In this document: in pieces, positions 39,317-44,188 of the stretch
How positions within the stretch are numbered: position 1 is the first letter of the stretch
How the letters are laid out: each line of letters opens with the position of its first letter
Source of the DNA: Planctomycetota bacterium
Lineage (GTDB): Bacteria > Planctomycetota > Phycisphaerae > Phycisphaerales > SM1A02
Direction of reading: 5' to 3'
Assembly (NCBI GenBank): GCA_016873255.1
Contig: VGXR01000016.1
Span: 1-44,188 of the forward strand
DNA: 44,188 bases
Program-made: the position numbers and the translations under genes
The notes under the pieces: model-generated
The model's database searches: none
Seen by the model: the letters and a program-made list of their open reading frames with translations, nothing else
What the model was told of the DNA's origin: nothing

Positions 39317-40486
39317 GTGTCCGGACACGACGGCAAGCAGTTCCTCACCAGCCCGATCAACCTCACCGGACGCGGCACCGCGCCCGGCGAAGGCAAGAAG
39401 GCCTGGACCCTCTGGCTGAGCGCCATCATCAAGTTCGGCGGCAGCGACCTCATCGTCAAGAGCGACCTGAAGCCCCGCATCCGCCACCGCGGCGTGCTGA
39501 AGGACGTGGAGGTCGACGTCGTCACCCAGGACCTGATGTTTCAGGTGGCCAAGGACATCCTCGACGCGGGCCAGCTCGACATCTTCTGCAAGAAGGGGTC
39601 GATGGACTTCGCGTACGACTACGACGACAGGAACCGCTTCCGCGTCAACATCTTCATGGCCCGCGGCAAGCCGGCCGTCGCGGCGCGCCTCATCACCAGC
39701 AACATCAAGAAGTTCGAGGACCTGTACCTGCCGCAGTCGCTCGGCGACGTGGCCATGATGGCGCAGGGCCTCATCCTCTTCGCGGGCGTCACCGGCAGCG
39801 GCAAGTCCACCTCCATCGCCGCGATGCTGCAGTTCGTCAACGAGCGCAAGAAGGTGCACATCGTCACGATCGAGGACCCGATCGAGTACATCTTCAAGGA
39901 CGACAAGGCCACCATCAACCAGCGCGAGATCGGCATCGACTGCGTCAGCTTCAACGACGCGCTCCGCGCCCTCGTCCGCGAGAACCCCGACATCGCGCTG
40001 GTGGGCGAGATGCGCGACTACGAGACGTTCGAGGCCGCCGTGCGCGCCGCCGAGACCGGCCACCTGGTGTTCGGCACCATCCACGCCTCCAGCGCCTGGC
40101 AGACCTTCGGCCGCATCTACGACCTGTTCCCGGTGGAAGAGCGCGAGCAGATCCGCAAGCTGCTTGCCTACAACCTGCGCGCCATCGTCTACCAGAAGCT
40201 GCTGCCCACCCTGCACCAGAACATCGCGCGCATCCCGGCGCTGGAGATCCTGATCAGCACGCCGGCCGTGCAGAAGTACATCCTCGAGGGCCGCGAGGGC
40301 GAGCTGCTCGACATCATCAAGAGCCGCGACGCCGGCATGATCGACTTCACCAGCTCGCTCGTCGACCTGGTGGAGAAGGAATACATCCACCAGGGCGTGG
40401 CCCTGCAGTCCACGCCGAAGCCCGAGGAGCTGCGCATGCGCCTCAAGGGCATCTCGCAGGGCGCATCGATGGTGGGCAAGGGCTGA
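39317..40486 (+). CDS. PilT-like secretion/pilus motor ATPase
   Basis: A 389-residue ATPase of the T4P/T2SS family, nearest in length and order to PilT. An N-terminal PAS-like domain (about 25-130) is followed by Walker A GVTGSGKST (157-165), Asp box IEDPIEYIF, Walker B PDIALVGEMRD (224-233) and the His box TGHLVFGTIHASSA. All catalytic residues are retained. The family forms cytoplasmic hexamers that power pilus retraction or related envelope machines. The start is GTG at 39317 with GGAGG 8 nt upstream. A second gene begins 2 bp after the stop, so the operon is tight. No pilin, prepilin peptidase or secretin gene is in the window, so the machine it drives is unknown. Confidence 0.88.
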   Translation: MSGHDGKQFLTSPINLTGRGTAPGEGKKAWTLWLSAIIKFGGSDLIVKSDLKPRIRHRGVLKDVEVDVVTQDLMFQVAKDILDAGQLDIFCKKGSMDFAYDYDDRNRFRVNIFMARGKPAVAARLITSNIKKFEDLYLPQSLGDVAMMAQGLILFAGVTGSGKSTSIAAMLQFVNERKKVHIVTIEDPIEYIFKDDKATINQREIGIDCVSFNDALRALVRENPDIALVGEMRDYETFEAAVRAAETGHLVFGTIHASSAWQTFGRIYDLFPVEEREQIRKLLAYNLRAIVYQKLLPTLHQNIARIPALEILISTPAVQKYILEGREGELLDIIKSRDAGMIDFTSSLVDLVEKEYIHQGVALQSTPKPEELRMRLKGISQGASMVGKG

Positions 40487-40488
40487 CC

Positions 40489-42219
40489 ATGGAGACCATC
40501 CGCACCTTCCTGCCGGCGCTGCTGGCCGAGACGCCGGCGCCCGCGTTCCTGATGAGCGTGGCGAAGCCGCTGGTCTCGTTCGCCGCGTTCGTGCCGTACG
40601 CCGCCTTCGTCTCGGGCAAGCTCGAGAAGGACGCCGCCTACTACAACCTCAACCCGCAGAAGTGGTCGGGCATCTTCCTGGCGTTCGGCGCCGCCGCGTT
40701 GCTGGCCGTCCTGCTGGTGCCTACGTGGCTGGCGGGATTCCCGCTGATGCTCACGCTGATGGTGGTGCCGTGCGCGTGGTACATGAAGTTCCGGAACAAG
40801 GCGCTCGAGGGAACCAAGGCCAAGCCGCTCTCGGTCCTCTCCATCGACTTCGCCAAGATGGCGGCCGAGCGCCGCGCCAAGTCCGCGATGGCGGGCGCCA
40901 CGCTCCGGTTCCAGAAGAAGGACCGCTCCGACCACCCCGTGCCCGACCGCAAGGACCCGGGGTTCGAGACCTACGGCGCGCTGGAGGCGCTCCTCCTCGC
41001 CGGCGCCGACGCGCGTGCCTCGCGCATCGAGGTGGCGCTCTCCAAGCAGGGAGCGCAGGTGCAGCACCTGATCGACTCGGTGCGCTTCAAGCGCGACCCG
41101 ATCGCAGGCGAGCTGGCCACCCGGGTGGTGGACCTCCTCAAGAACTACGCCGGGCTCGACCCCGCGGAGCGGCGCAAGTTCCAGCGCGACGTGCTGGCCT
41201 TCGTGCGCGACGGCAACCGCCGCCTGGCCACCGTCACCAGCGTCGGGTCGATGCAGGGCGAGGCCATCCGCATCGACTTCGACCGCGAGAAGCAGCTCAC
41301 CATCGCCGCCGACAAGCTCGGCGCAGGCGAGGCGCAGCTGAAGCCGCTCGTGGACGCCCTCTTCACCGATCCGCGCGGCGTGGTGCTGGTGGGTGCGCGC
41401 CCGGGCCAGGGCCTGACCACGGCCTGCTACGCCATGCTCGGGCGCCACGACTCGCTCACCTCCAACGTGAAGACGCTCGAGCGCAAGCACGAGCGCATCG
41501 TGGAGGGAGTGGAGCACGCGGACTTCAACCCATCCCAGAGCGACTACGCCACGCAGCTGCAGACCATCGTGCGCCGCGGCCCCGACGTCGTGTTCATGTC
41601 CGAGGCGGGCGAGCCGGGCGTGGGCAAGGTGGTCTGCGGCGCCAACGCGCGCGACACGCTCTTCTACGTGGCCCTGCCCACCGACAGCGTGCCGGACATG
41701 ATGGCCGCGTGGGTGAAGGCCGTGGGCGACCCGAAGTCGGCGGCCGAGACGCTCCGCGCCGTGGTGGCGCAGCGGCTCGTCCGCAAGGTGTGCCTGACCT
41801 GCCGCGCCCAGTATGCCGCCGGCCCCGCCGAGCAGAAGATGCTCGCCATCCCCAGCGGCAAGCAGGTGCAGCTCTACAAGCAGAGCGGCAAGGTGCTGGT
41901 GAAGGACCAGCCCGTCGACTGCCCCACGTGCAAGGGCACGGGCTTCCTGGGCGTCACCGGCGCGCTCGAGGTCCTGGTGCTCGACGACGAGGCGCGGCGG
42001 CTCCTCGCCTCCGGCGACGCCAAGGCCGCCTACATGCAGGCGCGCCGCGCGCACAAGTCGCTCTCGCTGCAGGAGGCGGCCCTGATGAAGGTGCGCGCCG
42101 GCGAGACCAGCCTCGACGAGGTGCGCCGCGTGTTTGCCCCGCCCGCCGCCGCCGCGGCCCCCGCCGCCGGCGCAGCCCCGAAGGCCCCGGCACCCGCCGC
42201 CGCACCCAAGAAGTCCTGA
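40489..42219 (+). CDS. membrane-anchored degenerate GspE/PilB-like pseudo-ATPase
   Basis: A 576-residue protein. Hydrophobic segments near residues 20-42 and 61-98 anchor it in the membrane, unusual for this normally soluble family. From about 160 it follows the GspE/PilB layout: an N-terminal domain, then the P-loop position reads VGARPGQGLTTACYAML (301-317), where GxxxxGK(S/T) has become G-A-R-P-G-Q-G-L-T, so the lysine is lost (Leu309). The Walker B position is PDVVFMSEAGEP. The zinc-finger pair is retained: CLTC (435-438) and CPTC (478-481) in RLVRKVCLTC and CPTCKGTGFLG. A Pro/Ala-rich tail (about 545-576) ends it. It likely cannot hydrolyse ATP and may be a regulatory or structural partner of the intact ATPase next to it. 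Confidence 0.75.
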   Translation: METIRTFLPALLAETPAPAFLMSVAKPLVSFAAFVPYAAFVSGKLEKDAAYYNLNPQKWSGIFLAFGAAALLAVLLVPTWLAGFPLMLTLMVVPCAWYMKFRNKALEGTKAKPLSVLSIDFAKMAAERRAKSAMAGATLRFQKKDRSDHPVPDRKDPGFETYGALEALLLAGADARASRIEVALSKQGAQVQHLIDSVRFKRDPIAGELATRVVDLLKNYAGLDPAERRKFQRDVLAFVRDGNRRLATVTSVGSMQGEAIRIDFDREKQLTIAADKLGAGEAQLKPLVDALFTDPRGVVLVGARPGQGLTTACYAMLGRHDSLTSNVKTLERKHERIVEGVEHADFNPSQSDYATQLQTIVRRGPDVVFMSEAGEPGVGKVVCGANARDTLFYVALPTDSVPDMMAAWVKAVGDPKSAAETLRAVVAQRLVRKVCLTCRAQYAAGPAEQKMLAIPSGKQVQLYKQSGKVLVKDQPVDCPTCKGTGFLGVTGALEVLVLDDEARRLLASGDAKAAYMQARRAHKSLSLQEAALMKVRAGETSLDEVRRVFAPPAAAAAPAAGAAPKAPAPAAAPKKS

Positions 42220-42229
42220 GGACAGCCCC

Positions 42230-43903
42230 GTGATCATCTCGTTCATCGGCATCGCCATCGCCCTGCTGATCACCTACTGGTGGTCCAACGCCGGCGCCTT
42301 CAGCGCGTTCATCCACTTCCTGTGCGTCGTCACCGCGGGCGCCGTGGCGTTCGGCGTATGGGAGCCCGCGAGCTACGCCATGATGGGCGGCGACGCGGGC
42401 GGCTACGCGAAGGGCCTCGTTCTCCTCGGCACCTTCGTGGCCGTGCTGGTGGTGCTGCGCCTCTTCACCGACCGCTTCATCCCCATGAACCTCACGCTCC
42501 CGCGCGCGGCCGACCTGGTGCTCGGCGGCGCGTTCGGCGCGGGATCGGGCGTGCTGACGGTGGGCATCCTCACCATCGGCATCGGGTTCGTGCAGAGCAC
42601 GGTCACCATCTTCGACTACACCGGCTGGTCGCGCCGCAGCGACGTGCCCACCGCGCCGACCATCGGTTCCGACGATGCGTACATCCTGGGCGTGGCCGAG
42701 GCCACCGCGGGCTTCTACGGGTACCTGTCCTGGGGCGCCTACACGCCGTGGCTCGGCGGGGGCACCATCAACACGCACATGCCGCAGCTGGTGCGCACCT
42801 CGGGCGCCCTGTACCGAGACAGCTTCGACGAGGGCATGGGCAAGGTCGCCATCCCGCCGTCGGCGATCAGCAAGATCGAGCTCCTCGACGTGCCGCCGGT
42901 CCCGCTGACGGGCGGCGTGGGCGCAGCGCCGAAGGCCGCGTGGGCCGTGAAGTTCGACGTCTCGCAGGAGGGCTTCGACGGCGCGGGCCAGCAGTTCGTG
43001 CTGTCGGCCAGCCAGGTGCGCGTGATCGGCGACGGCAAGTCCGGGCGCGCGATGCCCGTGCACCCGCTCGCGTGGATGCAGGAGGTGAAGGGCGTCGGGA
43101 TGCGCCCGTTCTTCTTCAACTCGCCGACCAGCTACGCCACCTCGGTGGAGAGCAAGGGCGACGGGTCGTTCGTGCTGCTCTTCCCCAAGGACGACCTCAA
43201 GGGCCAGGCGCCCCGCTTCTTCGAGATCAAGGGCGTCCGGTTCCGGCTGCCCACGAGCGCGAAGTCGGCGGCCGACCTGCTCGCGGGCGGCGCGGGCTCC
43301 TCGTCGGCCAAGCAGGTGGCCGACGAAGATGCCACCAACATCAACCCGCTGATCGACTTCCCCGACCCGAAGTACTCGATCGGCAGCACCGTGATCAACA
43401 CCAATGCGGCGGGTTCGCTGGAGCTGGACAAGGACAACTTCATCATCGGCGGCGAGCAGAAGTTCCCGCGCAACACCACCGCCTCCGTGGGCAGCGACCT
43501 GCGCGTGCGCGGGTTCAAGGTGAGCGATGGCGAGCAGCTGCTGCGCCTCGATGCCACGGCGCAGTCCGACGGCGTCCGCATCTTCCCCGACCTGAACTCC
43601 TGGGTGCGCGACTCGGGCCCCACCGCGCAGGGCGCGCGCGTGGCGGTGATCGACGAGTCCGGCAGCAAGTACTACGCGGTCGGCCTGGTCGAGGACGACG
43701 GCGAGTGGGTGCTCGTCAAGAGCATGCGCGGCCGCCCGCTCACCCTCAAGGACATCCCCATCCAGGCCGTGGGCAGCGGCAGGAAGCTGTCGCTCCACTT
43801 CCGCGTGCCGACCAAGACCAAGATCGTCGGGCTGGTGCTCGCCACCTCCGCCGAGGACCGCATCGTCAACACCGCAACCATCACCTCGCCGGACGAGAAC
43901 TGA
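42230..43903 (+). CDS. CvpA-like membrane protein with large unknown domain
   Basis: A 557-residue protein. The GTG at 42230 has GAGG 8 nt upstream and begins the first membrane helix (IISFIGIAIALLITYWWSN). Four hydrophobic segments fall at about 2-18, 24-44, 61-80 and 97-121; their layout and LRLFTDRF...RAADLVLGGAFGAGSG resemble CvpA (colicin V production) proteins, whose 4-helix domain is about 160 residues. The remaining about 430 residues are soluble, Asp/Lys/Gly-rich, and probably on the outside of the membrane; I recognise no family in them. It sits 10 bp after the pseudo-ATPase gene and 2 bp before the next gene. A role as the membrane platform for the two ATPases is inferred from position only. 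Confidence 0.65.
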   Translation: MIISFIGIAIALLITYWWSNAGAFSAFIHFLCVVTAGAVAFGVWEPASYAMMGGDAGGYAKGLVLLGTFVAVLVVLRLFTDRFIPMNLTLPRAADLVLGGAFGAGSGVLTVGILTIGIGFVQSTVTIFDYTGWSRRSDVPTAPTIGSDDAYILGVAEATAGFYGYLSWGAYTPWLGGGTINTHMPQLVRTSGALYRDSFDEGMGKVAIPPSAISKIELLDVPPVPLTGGVGAAPKAAWAVKFDVSQEGFDGAGQQFVLSASQVRVIGDGKSGRAMPVHPLAWMQEVKGVGMRPFFFNSPTSYATSVESKGDGSFVLLFPKDDLKGQAPRFFEIKGVRFRLPTSAKSAADLLAGGAGSSSAKQVADEDATNINPLIDFPDPKYSIGSTVINTNAAGSLELDKDNFIIGGEQKFPRNTTASVGSDLRVRGFKVSDGEQLLRLDATAQSDGVRIFPDLNSWVRDSGPTAQGARVAVIDESGSKYYAVGLVEDDGEWVLVKSMRGRPLTLKDIPIQAVGSGRKLSLHFRVPTKTKIVGLVLATSAEDRIVNTATITSPDEN

Positions 43904-43905
43904 CC

Positions 43906-44115
43906 ATGCGCCGAACGCTCCCCCTGCTCTCGCTTGCCGCCATGGCCGTCGTCCTCGCATTCGTGCCGGAGGCGGCGGCGCAGGATGCCCCGCCTCAGCC
44001 GAACCGGTCGATGACCGGCCTCAGCCCGGTGATCGGCTACGGCATCATGGCCTTGGGCGCCGCCGCCGTCATCGGCGCCAGCCTGATGCCCGCAAAGCGC
44101 GGACACCAGGATTGA
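43906..44115 (+). CDS. small signal-peptide/membrane protein
   Basis: A 69-residue protein with an N-terminal signal segment (LPLLSLAAMAVVLAFVPEAAA, quoted from about residue 5, likely cut near AAAQ) and a second hydrophobic helix (VIGYGIMALGAAAVIGASLM) before a short basic/acidic tail (PAKRGHQD). The linker is Pro/Gln-rich. It starts 2 bp after the CvpA-like gene, so it is the last visible gene of that operon. Function unknown; by size and position it could be an assembly or pilin-like partner, but no prepilin cleavage motif is seen. The stop codon lies inside the first unit of a 15-bp tandem repeat that runs to the window edge. Confidence 0.6.
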   Translation: MRRTLPLLSLAAMAVVLAFVPEAAAQDAPPQPNRSMTGLSPVIGYGIMALGAAAVIGASLMPAKRGHQD

Positions 44116-44188
44116 CTTCAGCGGGACTGACTCCCGCAGGACTGGCTTCCGCGGGACTGGCTTCCGCAGGACTGGCTTCCGCAGGACT
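44111..44188 (+). repeat. 15-bp tandem repeat over the last stop codon
   Basis: Five units and part of a sixth of ATTGACTTCAGCGGG / ACTGACTCCCGCAGG / ACTGGCTTCCGCGGG type (15 bp) begin within the stop codon of the small membrane protein and continue to the window edge. Units one and two keep TGA; later ones have TGG. The period is a multiple of three, so all are in the gene's frame. Confidence 0.9.

Follow-up and report, generated by a model that had tools for sequence, protein, structure and literature searches.

The window, the whole 44,188-nucleotide stretch of DNA analysed here, is the entire contig C16 of a 2.78-Mb draft genome from the order Phycisphaerales (class Phycisphaerae, Planctomycetota). 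Its 3′ end carries an operon of four genes, A, B, C and D, which are all on the + strand and separated by intergenic gaps of 2, 10 and 2 bp, exactly as the original prediction had placed them. The genes and features, with the basis of each assignment, are as follows.

39317..40486, + strand: gene A, PilT-family ATPase of 389 aa with no TM segment, GTG start (TIGR01420 score, motifs, tree)
40489..42219, + strand: gene B, predicted membrane-anchored GspE/PilB-type pseudo-ATPase of 576 aa, ATG start (Pfam T2SSE score)
40537..40785, + strand: N-terminal membrane anchor of B, residues ~17–99 (hydropathy of B homologues)
41392..41421, + strand: degenerate Walker A motif of B, GARPGQGLTT, residues 302–311 (alignments)
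42230..43903, + strand: gene C, CvpA-type protein of 557 aa, GTG start (PF02674 in homologues, hydropathy, low-confidence secondary structure)
43906..44115, + strand: gene D, small membrane protein of 69 aa, ATG start (signal-like start, one TM segment, conserved tail)
44107..44188, + strand: 15-bp tandem repeat (CAGGACTGGCTTCCG, 5.5 copies) at the contig end, where the assembly breaks

The sequence beyond D was read through contig C58 (reverse strand), which overlaps the window end from position 44034 and joins it to a convergent accC followed by accB. The original prediction had considered that the operon might continue into a canonical type IV pilus or type II secretion cluster; since the next gene after D is the convergent accC, the operon ends with D and no such run-on occurs. 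An apparent second copy of D on C58 is the overlap of that contig with the window end. The gene 5′ of A lies on the opposite strand, and we take it, from its translation read by eye, to be guaB-like. In families f5 and f6 the scanned neighbours include hisA upstream and convergent accC–accB with pepP downstream; those in other families include a GH3 protein, a uvrC-like gene, an amino-acid kinase and a sulfatase, and accC turned up close by in 23 of the compared loci. A Pfam scan of a subset of the neighbouring ORFs recognised no GspF/PilC platform, pilin, peptidase or secretin at the locus. Within the subset scanned, A is neither in nor beside a type IV pilus cluster, and the neighbours are housekeeping or unrelated genes. 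The locus was also considered as a defence system and discarded, there being no meaningful PADLOC match.

Canonical pilus genes are present elsewhere in the same genome. A PilB-PilT-PilB-PilC cluster is located on contig C57, separate from A-B-C. With the members of this cluster included, the genome has, besides B, four full-length ATPases of the PilB/GspE type, together with a canonical PilT, GspF/PilC and PilM (C7). The earlier statement that no pilin, secretin or prepilin peptidase is visible therefore holds for the locus and has to be qualified for the genome, in which PilB/GspE-type ATPases, PilT, GspF/PilC and PilM occur at other sites. Across the class, GspF/PilC and PilM are each found in 149 of 150 genomes, the single exceptions being incomplete genomes, so that a dependence of A-B-C on canonical pili is possible.

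Gene A encodes an apparently intact motor ATPase. It scores 377.9 bits against TIGR01420 (cut-off 319.1), which assigns it to the PilT/PilU family, and contains the Walker A (GVTGSGKST, lysine K163), Asp box (EDPIEY), Walker B (GEMRD) and His box (HASS) motifs, in agreement with its first description as a PilT-like ATPase with all catalytic motifs. These motifs are invariant or nearly so in the family alignments, and the mean column identity of A (65%) is the highest among the three core proteins (44% and 31% for the other two). The closest PDB entry is the solved PilT 2ewv; searched against the same chains of the PDB, the C57 PilT reaches 353.6 bits and A 256.5. In a midpoint-rooted FastTree phylogeny, several inner nodes of which are weakly supported, A and the A proteins from other loci form one clade of 73 with a support of 0.977, apart from canonical PilT. 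Judged by its sequence, A belongs to a planctomycete clade distinct from the canonical PilT of its own genome.

Gene B scores 104.5 bits against Pfam T2SSE (cut-off 24.9), with the domain spanning residues 174–547, and remains below the cut-offs of the GspE/PilB equivalogs TIGR02533 (141.3 versus 630.25) and TIGR02538 (121.2 versus 675.65). No MshEN domain was matched in B by a domain search. The N-terminal part contains hydrophobic segments at residues 17–35, 59–77 and 81–99; the homologues mostly have two or three such segments, the number varying by sequence and the topology being uncertain, and the canonical PilB/GspE proteins of the same genome have none. The Walker A motif reads GARPGQGLTT where an active enzyme has GPTGSGKST. 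Its lysine is absent from all 71 class homologues, with L, R and V as the commonest substitutes, and from L104 of family f98 as well. The class homologues differ from one another at the Walker B Glu/Arg and His-box positions. The Asp-box glutamate is kept in 80 of 80 sequences, and a Cys4 motif (C435, C438, C478 and C481) is invariant or nearly so. In family f2 (L071, L072, L074 and L075), B is without most of these zinc-motif cysteines. The T2SSE match, the hydrophobic N-terminus and the missing lysine bear out the view of B as a membrane-anchored GspE/PilB-like protein without the Walker A lysine. Ka/Ks of B is 0.06–0.13 in most close pairs; the pair of the window and L034 gave higher values (0.36 for B) and was treated as less reliable. 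On sequence grounds B is a maintained pseudo-ATPase under purifying selection, and it may still bind nucleotide.

Outside the class, anchored B proteins with all motifs intact are found in families f48, f55 and f69, beside A and/or a plain CvpA protein. The anchor and the linkage are thus not specific to the dead form, and B is therefore a pseudo-ATPase of long standing whose ancestor was an anchored motor with activity. L104 (genome G351, f98) has a degenerate B outside the class that clusters with the intact forms in the B tree; the root of that tree is uncertain, and the position suggests a second, independent loss of the ATPase motifs. AlphaFold models of B and C, each built from three aligned sequences, reached pLDDT values of 37.9 and 47.9, too poor for a structure search.

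Gene C of the window scores 14.5 bits against the CvpA family PF02674, below the cut-off of 29.3. Among the C homologues of the order, 35 of 39 match PF02674 at E ≤ 0.05, and the relatives in L076, L087, L094, L098 and L102 lie above the same cut-off (30.7–35.8 bits). By these family statistics the N-terminal part of C is CvpA-like, and the original prediction of a CvpA-like protein with a large extra domain is upheld, even though the window protein itself does not reach the threshold. Hydropathy indicates four N-terminal hydrophobic segments in nearly all C homologues. The long remainder, which is probably periplasmic, contains two β-rich regions (~205–350 and 400–557) in a low-confidence model; in an internal-duplication test they were weakly alike (hhalign probability 58%, 5% identity). 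The C homologues outside the class comprise the CvpA part alone, of ~197–252 aa. The C-terminal β-rich region (profile 363–545) also occurs as a separate gene at G039:C61:16212-16796 and G048:C21:99431-99961.

Gene D combines a signal-peptide-like start, one TM segment and a conserved tail, PAKRGHQD. The small signal-peptide protein predicted as the fourth gene is indeed present here; outside the genus of the window it is not in the operon, and it is an accessory rather than part of the conserved core. The tail pattern KR[GST]HQD occurs about once per genome in 30 of 41 genomes searched, the same pattern read backwards, as a control, giving no match in the search, and outside the genus the protein bearing it is usually encoded elsewhere in the genome. 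The C protein of family f4 has a TM segment followed by KR[ST]HQD at its own C-terminus, which suggests that D belongs with C. A KR[GST]HQD tail after a TM segment was seen in most genomes of the order (loci L060–L062 and L137–L139; L111–L140). An apparent C–D gene fusion in L037 was rejected, as the ORF crosses a stretch of N.

The locus is widespread in the class. A search found C in 59 of 61 relatives and in 144 of the 150 genomes of the class; its matches beyond the class were confined to families f48, f55, f98 and f69. Full-length anchored B occurs outside the class in f48, f55 and f98; in f69 the search matched mainly the ATPase part, and L103 of that family has A, B and C in order. The order A-B-C is present in most of ~70 loci from 25 families, and its recurrence is beyond what chance would give. 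Two class genomes with no C match at first, G091 and G103, proved on closer inspection to have A and B together with a diverged C; in two others, G077 and G128, A and B lie near a contig end. G091 and G103, both of family f20, are rich in PilB/GspE-type ATPases, with about ten such matches to the B profile in each. In G167, which has type IV pilus-type genes, A-clade PilT, B and C were undetected.

A lies apart from B-C in G062, G069, G396, G276 and G416, with B and C still adjacent in the last three, and in G216 A and B are together and C is elsewhere. Four genomes from three families (G065, G102, G117 and G088) keep a degenerate B-C and have no A-clade PilT, which indicates that another protein can stand in for A or that A is not the partner in every case. 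In G062 (L195 5506-8588), the A-clade PilT adjoins an FHA-domain GspE with intact motor motifs, and B-C is located elsewhere. Of the window's four-gene order, A-B-C is the usual arrangement in the class, and D is not part of it outside the window's genus. The separation or individual absence of the genes in relatives, which had been named as evidence against a joint function, was found in part: A, B or C stands apart in some lineages, usually with two of the genes still adjacent.

We interpret the locus as an ATP-driven envelope motor in which A acts through the membrane-fixed B and is coupled to C, a reading to which we give somewhat less than an even chance. B would form a membrane-fixed ring or adaptor, on which A would dock from the cytoplasm and supply ATP hydrolysis. 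Movement would pass via the membrane parts of B and C to the β-rich periplasmic part of C, with the anchor of B replacing or adding to a PilC/GspF platform; candidate tasks in the periplasm are envelope maintenance, transport and filament handling. We infer ring formation, the action of A through B and the transfer of force to C by analogy. The closest mechanistic precedent for A-B is Vibrio cholerae PilU, which acts only through PilT, even when PilT is ATPase-dead; PilU and PilT each assemble into a homohexamer of their own, and the two probably interact (PMC6762196, PMC6821130). Consistent with a motor, the gene order A-B-C is conserved in both the order and the class and recurs in a few other planctomycete families, A is intact and B degenerate throughout the class, and two-gene adjacency survives in rearranged genomes (A-B in G216; B-C in G396, G276 and G416). 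The four B-C genomes that lack an A-clade PilT and the f48 genomes with an intact B argue against a simple obligate A+B pair. The linkage of an intact and a degenerate ATPase with a CvpA-type protein, as first described, is supported. A more far-reaching version, advanced only tentatively, is a class-wide, pilin-independent ATP-driven machine, in which an active PilT ring would power a membrane-fixed pseudo-ATPase ring on a CvpA base with a periplasmic β-rich arm, and which would have arisen from an anchored active PilB-like motor that persists in other planctomycete families.

It is possible, if doubtful, that A-B-C instead assists the canonical type IV pili or the type II secretion system encoded elsewhere, with A as a second, PilU-like retraction ATPase and B-C docking or regulating at the pilus base. 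A is a true member of the PilT/PilU family, PilU is known to act through PilT (PMC6762196, PMC6821130), every near-complete class genome also contains GspF/PilC and PilM, and the window's own genome has the PilB-PilT-PilB-PilC cluster on C57. This role fits less well with the scanned or matched neighbours, which are housekeeping or unrelated genes (hisA, accC-accB, pepP, uvrC-like and amino-acid kinase genes), and with G167, where type IV pilus-type genes persist and no A-clade PilT, B or C is detectable. We also know of no requirement for CvpA or an anchored dead ATPase in the known type IV pilus systems.

The retention of the Cys4 motif and of the Asp-box glutamate (80/80) despite lost catalysis, together with the four genomes having B-C and no A, would suit a membrane regulator that senses a nucleotide or metal and is not a motor, in which B keeps its fold and zinc motif and signals with C, and A is only loosely linked. 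We consider this unlikely: A is the most conserved of the three proteins and is in the operon in most class families, and the f2 B proteins have lost most of the cysteines. Still less probable is an origin of B as an anchored translocase laid out like VirD4/FtsK, whose ATPase role A would have taken over in the class, with C as the exit part; the intact B proteins of f48, f55 and f69 do have the same N-terminal anchor and T2SSE motor, but the resemblance to VirD4/FtsK is one of layout only. That B is a pseudogene in decay or an artefact of assembly, a reading favoured by the loss of catalytic residues and by that alone, has practically no chance of being right, as all 71 class homologues share the lysine loss with open reading frames, low Ka/Ks and retained invariant positions.

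The component families are known; the A-B-C combination, the anchored pseudo-ATPase and the class-wide retention were not found described in the open-licence papers searched, none of which treats PilT, CvpA and planctomycetes together. The main text of the Planctopirus essential-gene paper does not mention the A-B-C genes. A-B-C is probably a device of the cell envelope that is driven by energy and has so far gone undescribed, and there is a real chance that it is a separate machine. PilT/PilB-type ATPases are soluble motors of pili and secretion systems. If the motor interpretation is correct, this near-universal gene set, in which a dead ATPase is anchored in the membrane and teamed with an active one, would illustrate a way of tethering motors of this kind and putting them to new use. 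For the widespread CvpA proteins, a motor as partner would open the question of their mechanism to experiment. Cell division in planctomycetes does without FtsZ and their envelope is unusual, so that a motor at the core of the envelope would be of direct interest in this phylum. A comparison of families whose B is intact with those whose B is dead amounts to a natural experiment on when ATP hydrolysis was handed over to a single partner.

Compared with known systems, each component resembles its family with its own distinctions. C is like CvpA, which confers deoxycholate resistance in E. coli (PMC6705877), in its N-terminal four-TM part, and its distant homologues pass the family cut-off; it differs in that the class proteins usually carry the added long β-rich part and are linked to a PilT/PilB-type pair. 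B shares with PilB/GspE (PF00437) the T2SSE domain right to its end, Cys4 motif included, and its homologues in other planctomycete families keep all motifs. Unlike those enzymes, it has a TM anchor instead of MshEN, lacks the Walker A lysine, does not conserve the Walker B arginine or the His box and scores far below the equivalog cut-offs. The canonical type IV pilus motor cluster on C57 draws on the same ATPase superfamily as A and B, but it brings together an MshEN-containing PilB, PilT and PilC, and its PilT falls in another clade. A, finally, resembles the PilT/PilU proteins of type IVa pili in passing their family cut-off with every catalytic motif, and departs from them in forming its own planctomycete clade, in having no recognised pilus genes adjacent, and in being linked by gene order to an anchored dead partner and a CvpA protein.
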